Source of the DNA: a virus
Strand: one strand, 5' to 3'
IMG/VR virus record: IMGVR_UViG_3300037847_002035
Span: 1-57,111 of that record
Length of the DNA stretch: 57,111 bases
A program made the position numbers and the translations under genes. The notes beneath the pieces were generated by a model that saw nothing but the letters and a program-made list of their open reading frames with translations, was not told where the DNA came from and did not search any database. Of this stretch, positions 35,933 through 41,213 are shown one piece after another (within the stretch, counting starts at the first letter, position 1; each line of letters starts with the position of its first letter).

Positions 35933-36606
35933 AAGCAAGACTAATCTCATATTCACAGACAGGAGAAAATCTACATGTCGGTAATGATGTACAGGAACTC
36001 ATTGCGTATTGCGCCCGTGTCTCCAATCCATCGAATCAAGATAACTCTGAAACGTCCGAAAAACTTTTACGTTACCTTGCCAAACACAAACACTGGTCGC
36101 CATTCGAGATGGTCAGTGCTTGCATAGAGGTAGAGACTACTCGTGATATTGCAAGACAGTTATTGAGACACAGATCATTTTCATTCCAAGAGTTTTCCCA
36201 AAGGTATGCTGATGTTCGAGAAATAGATGACAACTTTGTTATCCGTAGAGGAAGACTACAAGATCCCAAGAACAGACAGAACAGCATTGTTACAGATGAT
36301 GCAAGTCTGTTGACTGCTTGGGAGCAACACCAAAGAAATGTTTGGTATGCCGCAATGAAAGCATATGACTGGGCACTCGAAAATGGTATTGCAAAAGAAC
36401 AAGCAAGGTGTGTGCTACCAGAAGGTAATACTTTGTCGAGACTATACGTGAACGGTACGTTGAGATCTTGGATACACTATATAGAACTAAGATCTGCAAA
36501 TGGAACACAGAAAGAGCACATGGACTTAGCAGTAGAATGCGCCAAGGCAATAGCAAAAATATTCCCTAGCGCGGAACAATACATTGACACACAAAGAATC
36601 TCATAG
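35929..36606 (+). CDS. thyX: Flavin-dependent thymidylate synthase ThyX
   Basis: 225 residues from ATG 35929 (ATGA overlap). The ThyX signature RHRSFSFQEFSQRY near residue 82 is complete, and the C-terminal NGTLRSWIHYIELR segment near 171 matches the substrate-binding region. It makes dTMP from dUMP using FAD and methylenetetrahydrofolate, a standard marine phage nucleotide gene. Confidence 0.95.
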   Translation: MKARLISYSQTGENLHVGNDVQELIAYCARVSNPSNQDNSETSEKLLRYLAKHKHWSPFEMVSACIEVETTRDIARQLLRHRSFSFQEFSQRYADVREIDDNFVIRRGRLQDPKNRQNSIVTDDASLLTAWEQHQRNVWYAAMKAYDWALENGIAKEQARCVLPEGNTLSRLYVNGTLRSWIHYIELRSANGTQKEHMDLAVECAKAIAKIFPSAEQYIDTQRIS

Positions 36607-36787
36607 ACTCTTTTGGTTAGTCAAGGGACATCTAGGGGACGAGAAGACAGTACATGGTAGCGCAAACGGTTACTTCAAAAGATTGTGGTGTAAGCATCAA
36701 GGTGAAGACACCAGTTACTTAGAAGAAGGTTTTGAAGAAGCATATTATGAAAAGTATCCAGAAAGAAAATGTCATACACAGAATTAA
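36584..36787 (+). CDS. Hypothetical 67-aa protein
   Basis: Frame from a TTG at 36584 within thyX to 36787, 67 residues, rich in aromatic and charged residues with two Cys. The start is uncertain since the ribosome site is weak. It overlaps the next gene by 19 bases, and fills an otherwise empty stretch. Function unknown. Confidence 0.45.
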   Translation: MTHKESHRLFWLVKGHLGDEKTVHGSANGYFKRLWCKHQGEDTSYLEEGFEEAYYEKYPERKCHTQN

Positions 36788-37278: not shown

Positions 37279-37350
37279 ATGGAAGGACCTATCTGTAAAC
37301 TAAGAAAGAAAATTAAAACTTGGTTGAGTAAGAAAGATGAAAAAGAATAA
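37279..37350 (+). CDS. 23-aa basic peptide
   Basis: ATG 37279 behind a strong AAGGAG ribosome site. 23 residues, nine of them Lys or Arg. Overlaps the transporter start at 37337. Could be a leader peptide coupling translation of the transporter. Confidence 0.4.
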   Translation: MEGPICKLRKKIKTWLSKKDEKE

Positions 37351-37810
37351 ACTTTGGAAAAAGGTAAGTAAGATGGATCTAGGAAATCCTGTAATTACTG
37401 CCCTAGTTGGGTTAGTAATATTCTATATCGGACTAAAAACATTCTCTGGGGGAATGAAAGCAATGGGTAATATGGATCACCTTGCATTCTTCTTGGGTAA
37501 TCCGATATACATGTTTATTGGTGGTATAGTCATGACATTGTTGTGGCAATCATCGTCACTTTCGACTACCGCAATTATTGCGTTGGTTGCTTCTGGTGCA
37601 CTACCGTTACCTGCGGCAGTTGCGGCAGTCTTGGGTGCTAACATAGGTACTACTGGTACAATATGGTTAGCAGGGTTCTTCGTCTCGGATGGTATGCCGA
37701 AGGGAGATACTCTGCGAATAGCAATGGCACATACAGGAATGAATCTCCTGATGGCATTGATGCTCTTGCCCTTTGTGGGTAGGATTGCACAATTTCTCAC
37801 AAAATTTTAA
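37337..37810 (+). CDS. Half-size Na+/phosphate cotransporter-like membrane protein
   Basis: 157 residues with three or four membrane spans. LLWQSSSLSTTAIIALVASG followed by GANIGTTGT is the QSSS repeat motif of the PNaS (NptA/SLC34-type) Na+/Pi cotransporters. Cellular proteins have two such inverted repeats (300 residues or more); this has one, so it would have to dimerise or modify a host carrier. It suggests phosphate uptake support during infection (inference). Confidence 0.75.
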   Translation: MKKNKLWKKVSKMDLGNPVITALVGLVIFYIGLKTFSGGMKAMGNMDHLAFFLGNPIYMFIGGIVMTLLWQSSSLSTTAIIALVASGALPLPAAVAAVLGANIGTTGTIWLAGFFVSDGMPKGDTLRIAMAHTGMNLLMALMLLPFVGRIAQFLTKF

Positions 37811-39179: not shown

Positions 39180-39237
39180 TTTTTTCTTTCATTTAAATTT
39201 TAATATAGGTCACAGGTTTAATCTAAGTCAGTACTGG

Positions 39238-39245
39238 TATTTATA
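39238..39245 (-). promoter_or_regulatory. T4-type late promoter box for the 38694 minus gene
   Basis: TATAAATA on the minus strand, 59 bases before the ATG at 39179. It sits just before the tmRNA acceptor piece on the other strand. Confidence 0.45.
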
Positions 39246-39254
39246 AGTATTATA

Positions 39255-39316
39255 TATACTACTGTAGATGTTGGAGGATATTCTGGACATGGGGGCAGTA
39301 CCCATCACCTCCACCA
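39255..39316 (+). ncRNA. ssrA: Two-piece tmRNA, acceptor piece (circularly permuted ssrA)
   Basis: The 3' end is unmistakably tmRNA-like: TTCTGGAC (39281-39288) matches the TTTCGGAC just before the T-stem in bacterial tmRNA, then a T-stem ATGGG (39289-39293), 7-base loop GGCAGTA, CCCAT (39301-39305), acceptor strand CACCTCC (39306-39312), discriminator A and CCA (39314-39316). CACCTCC pairs with GGGGGTG at the start of the coding piece (39552-39558), all seven positions with one G-U pair. The T-loop lacks the usual TTC. The 5' end is not defined; GTAGA (39264-39268) can pair with TCTAC in the coding piece. The permuted order, acceptor first, is that of alphaproteobacterial tmRNA. Confidence 0.88.
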
Positions 39317-39334
39317 AAATTACATGGGGAAAAT

Positions 39335-39544
39335 ATGGACGATAAAGATAAAATAATAGACATAAAACGTACTACTAATGAATTTGAAGTCGGAGTTAGA
39401 TTATTAGGAAACGAACTAATAGGAATACGACTTGCATCAACTAACGCAAGTGGCAAGATGATTCTCTGGGCAGTGCTATTATTATTCTTTACATTCATGA
39501 TCATGGAAGTCTTTGGGTTCAACCAATACTTTCTATCCACGTAA
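39335..39544 (+). CDS. 69-aa membrane protein gene inside the tmRNA intervening segment
   Basis: ATG 39335 lies 18 bases after the CCA of the acceptor piece, with GGGGA before it; the stop (39542-39544) is 7 bases before the coding piece. The gene fills 210 of the 235 bases between the two RNA pieces. 69 residues: a soluble half with VGVRLLGNELIGIRLASTN, then one C-terminal membrane span (KMILWAVLLLFFTFMIMEVF). If the locus is made as one precursor, this open frame would be carried on the segment removed during tmRNA maturation. Function unknown. Confidence 0.7.
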   Translation: MDDKDKIIDIKRTTNEFEVGVRLLGNELIGIRLASTNASGKMILWAVLLLFFTFMIMEVFGFNQYFLST

Positions 39545-39551
39545 TTTTGAT

Positions 39552-39690
39552 GGGGGTGAACTAGGTTCGACAGGTATTTGAGTCTACGAAACACAAATGC
39601 AAACGATAATTTTGCACCATCTGGATTACGCCTAGCGGCATAATCACAGGGGGTTGGGCACTTACCTAGCAACAGAAAAGTGTCACCACA
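39552..39690 (+). ncRNA. ssrA: Two-piece tmRNA, coding piece, tag ANDNFAPSGLRLAA
   Basis: Starts GGGGGTGAAC and TAGGTTCGACAGG, matching the conserved tmRNA 5' domain. The tag frame opens at GCA 39599 and reads ANDNFAPSGLRLAA, stop TAA 39641-39643; ANDNFA and a terminal LAA or VAA are classic tmRNA tag features. The end of the frame lies in a hairpin, GATTA(c)GCC (39624-39632) with GGC(a)TAATC (39637-39645), as helix 5 does in known tmRNAs. GGCACTT and AAGTGTC form a further 7-base stem downstream. The 3' end is approximate. Paired with the acceptor piece, it would rescue stalled ribosomes and tag their products for proteolysis. Confidence 0.9.
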
Positions 39691-39972: not shown

Positions 39973-40267
39973 TAAAAATTACAGTAGAGTTATAGTGTCT
40001 TTCATTATCACCAATAATACTGTAGTTGGAACTTCTATAAGAATTGTAAGTACCTTCACTGTCAAAATCCTTTTGATAAGTTATGTATGTACCGTCAGAA
40101 GATAAAGTTTCAGTAATTGTTAATTTGCCTGAATTTTCTAGACCATCTAATACTACATCTATATCACTATCTTCAGTTTTATGATCATTCCAAAAATCAT
40201 CTACAGTTTCCCAAGTTTTATCAGGATACTTTGTAGAAAGTATTTTAAGTGTTGTTCTGTATGCCAT
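39959..40267 (-). CDS. Hypothetical 102-aa protein
   Basis: 102 residues, Ser/Thr/Asp-rich and beta-like, with no recognised motif. It is the last gene of a three-gene minus-strand, AT-rich cassette and overlaps the PP-loop gene by 23 bases. Confidence 0.6.
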   Translation of the reverse strand: MAYRTTLKILSTKYPDKTWETVDDFWNDHKTEDSDIDVVLDGLENSGKLTITETLSSDGTYITYQKDFDSEGTYNSYRSSNYSIIGDNERHYNSTVIFRGSV

Positions 40268-41213
40268 TTATCTTTTCCAATAAATTATTATAAAAATCTT
40301 TAAATTTAGGTTCTAATACGCTCTTTATGTATTTATCATATAAGTACCACTCATTTTTAAATTGATCAATTGTTTTTTCTAAATAATCTCTTATCTCATG
40401 TTCTAAATCAAATACATCTTTTGGCAACCTGTCAAATCCAGTATAGTCAGTCATAGGCATACCAAATCTTCTAATATGACCATCTTTACGATCTTTGTTA
40501 TAGTTCACTATAGGTTTTCTACTAACTAAGTTTGGATAGAATGATCTATAAAATTGATTTTTATGACACATTAAACAATTTATAAAACCGTCTTCCATAT
40601 CTGAAGAGTGACTATCCCCATCTGTATTATACTTAGTACCATTGATAAATTCTATTGTCTCATCTTCAATGTACCAACTTAATTGCTGTTCTGGTGTGTG
40701 ATTAAAAAATGCTCCTTCACCAGTATCCTTAAAAAACAATTTGAAAGATTGTTCTTCTTTTCCATATATACCTGATATCTCTCCAGATTGTTCTCTTGTT
40801 AAATCTGGTTCACCAAGACCTAATATTGGATAACCATCAACCTTTTTTGCTACATGCATATAATACAGTATTTGTGGACTAACTGCTCTAGACTTATGAG
40901 CAATATCTAACCATTCAGTGCCTTTCCAAAAGTTGTGAACATCAGCGTCATATAATGTATATTTTATATTATAAGCATCACACCAATCTATTGCATATTT
41001 TATATCATAATCATTCCAACCATCATTATATCTCATAATAAAAATTTCATGAGGCACTTTTGCTAAACGAAAAGATTCTCCAATCACATTAGAATCTAAT
41101 CCACCACTTAAAAATATTACAGGTTTTTTTTGTTCTTCGTAAATCTTTTGTGCTGAAAGTATATTTTCTTCTTGCCATGAGTTTGGCAATCTATTTATTT
41201 TCGATTGAAACAT
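40245..41213 (-). CDS. PP-loop (N-type ATP pyrophosphatase) protein
   Basis: 322 residues. FLSGGLDSNVIG near residue 34 is the SGGxDS PP-loop that binds ATP and adenylates a carbonyl or oxygen in asparagine synthetase, NadE, TilS, QueC and relatives. A NCLMCHKNQF segment near 213 could bind metal. It has no glutaminase domain, and is longer than QueC. The substrate is unknown. It overlaps the GNAT gene, suggesting a short biosynthetic pathway. Confidence 0.78.
   Translation of the reverse strand: MFQSKINRLPNSWQEENILSAQKIYEEQKKPVIFLSGGLDSNVIGESFRLAKVPHEIFIMRYNDGWNDYDIKYAIDWCDAYNIKYTLYDADVHNFWKGTEWLDIAHKSRAVSPQILYYMHVAKKVDGYPILGLGEPDLTREQSGEISGIYGKEEQSFKLFFKDTGEGAFFNHTPEQQLSWYIEDETIEFINGTKYNTDGDSHSSDMEDGFINCLMCHKNQFYRSFYPNLVSRKPIVNYNKDRKDGHIRRFGMPMTDYTGFDRLPKDVFDLEHEIRDYLEKTIDQFKNEWYLYDKYIKSVLEPKFKDFYNNLLEKINGIQNNT

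Follow-up and report, generated by a model that had tools for sequence, protein, structure and literature searches.

The viral record IMGVR_UViG_3300037847_002035, analysed here over its whole length of 57,111 nucleotides (nt; this stretch is referred to as the window), carries a circularly permuted transfer-messenger RNA (tmRNA) gene at approximately 39263-39687 on the + strand. A complete open reading frame (ORF) lies within the spacer between the two tmRNA pieces and encodes P0001, a predicted membrane protein of 69 amino acids (aa) that holds a hydrophobic stretch. We consider it highly probable that the locus encodes a working phage-encoded permuted tmRNA, the excised spacer of which serves as a nest for the small protein gene. 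This reading is directly supported by the gene order, by base pairing and covariation, by selection on the nested ORFs, by the recurrence of nesting in other viral loci, by a promoter box and by a helix that closes the spacer.

The first-pass annotation had proposed a phage-encoded circularly permuted two-piece tmRNA at this locus and had named a covariance-model search among its checks, with the lack of any hit as evidence against it. Run here, this search gave hits and confirmed the proposal: both permuted models of Rfam scored above cut-off, RF04321 (tmRNA_permuted) at 39264-39643 with 75.4 bits (cut-off 47) and RF01849 (alpha_tmRNA) at 39213-39687 with 69.3 bits (cut-off 50). The acceptor and coding pieces are separate and in permuted order, CCA is present, and the acceptor strands CACCTCC and GGGGGTG pair at seven of seven positions, all as described in that annotation (coordinates in Table 1). 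A resume codon GCA and a hydrophobic-ended tag, ANDNFAPSGLRLAA, are present, and the helix-5 hairpin in which the tag had been said to end was recovered as a predicted fold enclosing the tag stop codon. No intron family reached the Rfam cut-off in the window, which sets the gene apart from tmRNA genes of the group I intron type. ARAGORN reported no tmRNA at the locus. The same program recovered four of 18 nested tmRNAs with spacers of at least 200 nt and thus misses most long-spacer cases, so that surveys based on ARAGORN undercount viral permuted tmRNAs.

The first-pass annotation had overlooked the gene nested in the spacer, as well as the absence of a region discussed below (PK1). P0001 has at least 286 relatives in marine viral contigs of IMG/VR, and its protein gave no match in PHROG, Pfam or the PDB. 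AlphaFold predicted two helices with a mean predicted local distance difference test (pLDDT) score of 69.6; this was too weak for a fold search with the model. Among phage isolates, no relatives were found for P0001, for a nested DUF6356 ORF or for a nested 38-aa ORF. In contigs from other metagenomes (L003-L010), the P0001 gene occupies the equivalent position in the spacer, and the phage genes flanking the nested loci keep the same order across contigs. In total, the P0001 family was nested in 16 loci, and most of its other relatives had no tmRNA in the stretch fetched around them. In locus L013, the relative lies 66 nt upstream of the tmRNA rather than in the spacer. The spacers of L011 and L012 hold two genes, one for a DUF6356 protein and one for a P0001 relative that extends into the coding piece.

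Nesting is not confined to the P0001 family. Viral permuted tmRNAs were gathered from IMG/VR by two sequence patterns and by protein searches, and bacterial ones, which were mostly alphaproteobacterial, by one pattern; all viral and bacterial tmRNA counts given here are samples, among the matches listed. In an earlier count of 185 distinct viral spacers, the median length was 74 nt and 21% were at least 150 nt long. The 103 bacterial spacers had a median of 28 nt and a maximum of 139 nt. Of 191 distinct viral tmRNAs, 49 had an ATG ORF of 30 codons or more with its start no more than 60 nt from the CCA, compared with none of the 103 bacterial ones; the viral set was partly enriched via searches with two nested proteins and contains near-identical copies, so that 49/191 is not a population frequency. 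Of the 72 viral spacers of at least 100 nt, 33 held an ORF of this kind that combined a Shine-Dalgarno match with a cover of 70% or more, compared with 0.6±0.7 (maximum 2) expected from 100 dinucleotide shuffles of the same spacers. The longest spacers in a search of alphaproteobacterial genomes (165, 115 and 89 nt) contained no ATG ORF; those of 165 and 115 nt (L474 and L475) are hairpin-like repeats.

About a dozen unrelated ORF families were found nested, and every one of them is also known from another nested copy or from a relative that is not in a spacer. They comprise P0001, two DUF6356 types, MKNPL (38-44 aa), HWISW, MFKWL (from the Methylophilales phage Melnitz), CVEYI and the ORFs of loci L092, L146, L155, L157 and L214. 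Some of these families sit directly outside the tmRNA in other phages. The L155 ORF is related to Melnitz gene 85, which is located directly upstream of the Melnitz tmRNA. By eye, the L092 spacer ORF resembles the window gene at 36584-36787, and this gene is perhaps a member of a pool of small genes that moves in and out of the tmRNA. A relative of Melnitz, L279 (83% identity upstream and 90% downstream), has a spacer of 54 nt without an ORF, compared with 142 nt and an ORF in Melnitz. Small genes of the neighbourhood thus appear to enter and leave the spacer slot. Non-nested DUF6356 relatives had no tmRNA nearby by Rfam in 14 loci. Two further observations concern the surroundings of phage tmRNAs. 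Locus L146 (- strand, 2106-2604) has a 499-nt spacer with two ORFs of 34 and 120 aa, and in many other phages the tmRNA is followed, 190-200 nt downstream, by a relative of the 120-aa ORF. Glutamine riboswitch aptamers (RF01739) adjoin phage tmRNAs upstream in L173 (2150-2198) and downstream in L176 (778-828) and L001 (5360-5408).

The nested ORFs also bear marks of selection at the protein level. Pooled over nested copies, the ratio of nonsynonymous to synonymous differences (pN/pS) was 0.25 for P0001, 0.15 for DUF6356, 0.29 and 0.18 for MKNPL, 0.15 for CVEYI, 0.23 for HWISW and 0.28 for MKHLK. The value for MFKWL (0.40) derives from a single close pair and fails to tell the reading frames apart. 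In four gapless sets (MKNPL, MKNPL44, CVEYI and MKHLK), the other two frames gave pN/pS of at least 0.69. Pfam family DUF6356 (cut-off 24.4 bits) matched nested ORFs of the L103/L259/L011 type and of the L131/L289 type with 43.3 and 33.5 bits, and not the ORF of the window. We conclude from these sequence comparisons that the nested ORFs of the main families evolve as proteins, that is, as genes.

The RNA around the ORFs was examined too, and both halves of the tmRNA proved to be intact. In 39 distinct nested tmRNAs, 467 of 468 acceptor-stem and T-stem pairs were standard, with compensatory changes at several positions; as detection required at least six acceptor pairs, the evidence here is the covariation rather than the raw pairing. 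The third acceptor pair (A2, alanine identity) was G-U in all 39 distinct sequences, including that of the window, and 45 of the 46 tags found in the nested set ended in AA (LAA tags). Rfam confirmed a tmRNA in all 20 related loci scanned, L013 being the non-nested one among them. The spacer ends form a covarying helix that prolongs the acceptor stem. This helix had a mean of 10.07 base pairs (bp) in nested loci, compared with 5.35±0.38 bp when strands were re-paired between loci; viral spacers of at least 40 nt without an ORF gave 10.28 bp, and bacterial spacers of at least 30 nt 4.80 bp.

In the window, the resume codon lies 47 nt from the coding-piece start; the corresponding distance is 46-50 nt in the window's group and 69-101 nt in 101 bacterial permuted tmRNAs. 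The covarying helix P2 ends approximately 10 nt before the resume codon and leaves no room for pseudoknot 1 (PK1). Judged from these distances, the PK1 region is missing in the window's lineage, and PK1 as a mark of membership among tmRNAs was not found. According to PMC4236655, which cites the result, tagging in vivo persists in E. coli when single-stranded RNA takes the place of PK1 in its tmRNA. PK1 is thus replaceable in E. coli, and it lies outside the RF04321 model, so that its absence marks a variant and does not exclude the RNA from the tmRNAs. The missing region amounts to a natural test of which tmRNA parts are needed.

A T4-late-type promoter box, TATAAGTA, lies ahead of the acceptor piece. 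Of 43 nested loci, 31 carry the pattern TATAARTA ahead of GGAC at a spacing that hardly varies (mostly 33-41 nt), where 0.4 would be expected; among the other viral loci it is present in 78 of 139 (1.3 expected), and among 101 bacterial loci in none. Most relatives carry a TTGACA-like box 16-18 nt upstream of TATAARTA, a combination that fits a sigma-70 or dual promoter. The window has no -35 match at this distance (best 3/6), which fits a T4-type late promoter, and a late sigma factor of the gp55 type is among the window's own gene products. The idea that all these tmRNAs have a purely late promoter did not hold up, since most of them also have the TTGACA box. PMC9004378 places the Melnitz tmRNA downstream of an early promoter.

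That the record belongs to a T4-like phage, as the first-pass annotation had stated, is supported by its genes for replication, recombination and late transcription. Besides the late sigma factor, the window encodes UvsX, UvsW, UvsY, DNA polymerase, a gp41-type helicase, clamp, clamp loader and SbcCD-type proteins; by the helicase, the closest isolates are phage C48C1 (66%) and cyanophages. No SmpB gene was found in the 57-kb record, which may be a fragment, and the tmRNA would presumably use the SmpB of the host. Tags were compared with regard to host identity, and the few SAR11 tags seen (e.g. ANESYALAA) differ from the tag of the window. Four short-spacer loci of IMG/VR (L120, L137, L141 and L148) carry ANESYALAA, as do some Pelagibacteraceae genomes, and may be host fragments or recent captures. 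Elsewhere in the window, a half-length Na+/Pi-cotransporter-like gene (PF02690) is located at 37337-37810 near an endolysin gene, and a 92% identical copy lies directly upstream of the tmRNA in L011. The protein encoded at 40245-41213 (- strand) has an SGGLDS motif, as in N-type ATP pyrophosphatases, and no Pfam match.

Table 1. Features of the permuted tmRNA locus and its nested gene (window coordinates).
Feature	Position	Strand	Basis or remark
T4-late-type promoter box TATAAGTA, ahead of acceptor piece	39242-39249	+	TATAARTA pattern
Acceptor piece	39263-39316	+	Rfam RF04321/RF01849, pairing statistics; 5' end inexact
P2 5' strand TGTAGAT	39263-39269	+	compensatory changes among relatives
GGAC and T-arm	39285-39305	+	part of acceptor piece
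Acceptor 3' strand CACCTCC; discriminator A; CCA	39306-39312; 39313; 39314-39316	+	
Spacer	39317-39551	+	235 nt; expected to be excised at maturation
Spacer-closing helix, 5' strand AAATTAC	39317-39323	+	continues acceptor stem
Nested gene P0001, 69-aa predicted membrane protein	39335-39544	+	translation; relatives; pN/pS
Spacer-closing helix, 3' strand GTAATTT	39541-39547	+	includes UAA stop of nested gene; also in precursor fold
Coding piece	39552-39687	+	GGGGGTG (39552-39558), TTCGAC, tag, helix 5, 3' part; 3' end approximate (end of Rfam match)
P2 3' strand GTCTACG	39582-39588	+	within coding piece
Tag reading frame ANDNFAPSGLRLAA, including UAA stop	39599-39643	+	GCA AAC GAT ... GCA TAA
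Predicted hairpin around tag stop codon (helix 5)	39617-39652 (about)	+	coding-piece fold, z = -2.5

From this arrangement we infer that the parts are transcribed together and the transcript is cleaved, that SmpB of the host is used, and that the ORF is translated into a protein with a role. A single transcript would contain the acceptor piece, a ribosome-binding region with the 69-aa ORF, and the coding piece. The tmRNA pieces would pair via the acceptor stem, lengthened by the helix of the two spacer ends, and the ORF would consequently sit in a loop. The spacer would be cut out by RNase P at the 5' end of the coding piece and by a 3' tRNA nuclease at the CCA end, as proposed for permuted precursors in PMC3985003. 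Together with SmpB of the host, the two mature pieces would then rescue ribosomes and add ANDNFAPSGLRLAA to proteins as a tag; the first-pass annotation had proposed that such an RNA could serve ribosomes on cleaved host mRNA or redirect tagging. The template for translation of the ORF would be the precursor or, once released, the spacer RNA.

Several points weigh against a working tmRNA with a nested, expressed gene. The Shine-Dalgarno sequence of the window ORF itself is weak (ATGGGGAAAATATG), and relatives carry GGAGA. The nested counts include near-identical copies. IMG/VR relies on prediction for its viral assignments, and among the short-spacer loci there may be fragments of host genomes. 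Processing and translation are predictions from DNA, and the two may or may not occur on the same molecule. A rival account, which we treat as tentative and rather doubtful, holds that tmRNA maturation and translation of the nested gene compete with or regulate each other. Ribosomes on the ORF would open the closing helix and the acceptor stem, and cleavage of the precursor would end or truncate the mRNA; where the ORF stop lies inside the coding piece, cleavage would yield a non-stop mRNA that is tagged by the tmRNA itself. The UAA of the window ORF does lie within the closing helix, and 12 of the 49 nested ORFs extend 13-42 nt into the mature coding piece, so that maturation would make a non-stop mRNA of them (another 18 ORFs end 1 nt before the coding piece). 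There is also a precedent, since tmRNA maturation giving a non-stop mRNA has been proposed for the smpB-ssrA overlap of Carsonella (PMC4131195). However, the stop codon of the window ORF stays on the excised spacer, so that no non-stop mRNA is expected there, and the overlaps may be mere compaction, since conserved TGA and TAG triplets occur at the junction. It seems unlikely to us that the phage tmRNA spacer is a dedicated slot for small-protein expression in which maturation and translation control each other. If this were true, cleavage would release, shorten or make non-stop the nested mRNA, and the resulting tmRNA would police that mRNA.

If the nested ORF were a chance open frame or a decaying insert without function, single-member spacer ORFs without homologues (L126, L228 and L275) would fit, and the conserved stop triplets at the junction would favour chance ORFs ending there; for the main families, though, this explanation is already contradicted and was rejected on the strength of the P0001 relatives (at least 286), the pN/pS of 0.25 and the 33 ORFs found against 0.6 in shuffles, and for the window ORF it is hardly credible. 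The tmRNA could conversely be a degenerate relic or a decoy, with only the protein gene mattering. The missing PK1 region points in this direction, as do the window's Rfam scores of 69-75 bits, which are below those of L013 (129) or of bacterial tmRNAs. We nevertheless hold a relic to be quite improbable, given the compensatory changes in the acceptor stem, T-stem and P2, the G-U third pair in 39/39 sequences, the LAA tags and the activity of E. coli tmRNA with PK1 replaced; a degenerate tmRNA is disfavoured by the covariation. Finally, the window is a contig of an uncultured virus and might be an assembly chimera or misbinned host DNA. The probability of this is negligible, as the same arrangement recurs with sequence divergence in the contigs of several other metagenomes (L003-L010), with the flanking phage genes in the same order, and a nested ORF is also found in the cultured phage Melnitz, which already contradicts an artefact.

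The working permuted tmRNA proposed here, with a small protein gene in its excised spacer, may be set against what has been described so far. The Melnitz paper (PMC9004378) counts 53 phage tmRNAs that ARAGORN classed as two-piece; 50 of these come from marine or aquatic phages. A phage-encoded permuted tmRNA has therefore already been published, and the tmRNA of the window alone is not new. Protein genes in the spacers of permuted tmRNAs were not reported anywhere in the literature searched, which took in few subscription journals and no supplements. Within that literature, the new element would be small protein genes in the excised spacer of phage permuted tmRNAs. A survey of 2014 counted no Pfam-positive coding sequence internal to 115,660 valid tRNA and tmRNA genes (PMC4131195), and a tmRNA database paper of 2025 names a tRNA gene and a repeat as contents of spacers; for standard tmRNAs, it describes introns with endonuclease genes. 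Nesting in the spacer accounts for the frequent failure of gene finders to report such tmRNAs and for the lack of annotation of the small genes. It also makes testable whether a phage links small-protein production to ribosome rescue.

The tmRNA of the window shares its piece order, seven-pair acceptor stem, T-arm, tag, helix-5 hairpin and CCA with alphaproteobacterial permuted tmRNAs (RF01849/RF04321), and differs from them by a 235-nt spacer with a protein gene, a longer extension of the acceptor stem and the lack of room for PK1. With Melnitz (PMC9004378) it has in common a permuted tmRNA in a T4-like marine phage and a TATAAATA box before the acceptor piece, whereas Melnitz retains a longer pre-tag region. 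The ORF in the 142-nt Melnitz spacer (MFKWL..., Shine-Dalgarno match of 4) runs 42 nt into the coding piece; it is unannotated in the Melnitz record, and the available text of PMC9004378 contains no mention of it. Group I intron tmRNA genes, some with homing endonuclease genes (PMC11915505), likewise have a protein gene inside the tmRNA gene, in RNA that is removed. In contrast to the window gene, which sits between permuted pieces and gave no endonuclease-family match, these inserts are self-splicing introns in the T-loop region of standard tmRNAs. In the Carsonella smpB-ssrA overlap (PMC4131195), too, a protein gene overlaps a tmRNA and maturation would cut the mRNA, but there an upstream gene and a standard tmRNA overlap at their ends, without nesting. 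In the literature searched, the foreign genes previously described inside tmRNA genes amount to introns, of which some carry endonuclease genes, to a single tRNA and to a repeat; in the phage loci studied here, about a dozen protein families appear to have been put repeatedly into the discarded part of the tmRNA, while the surrounding RNA stays under selection.
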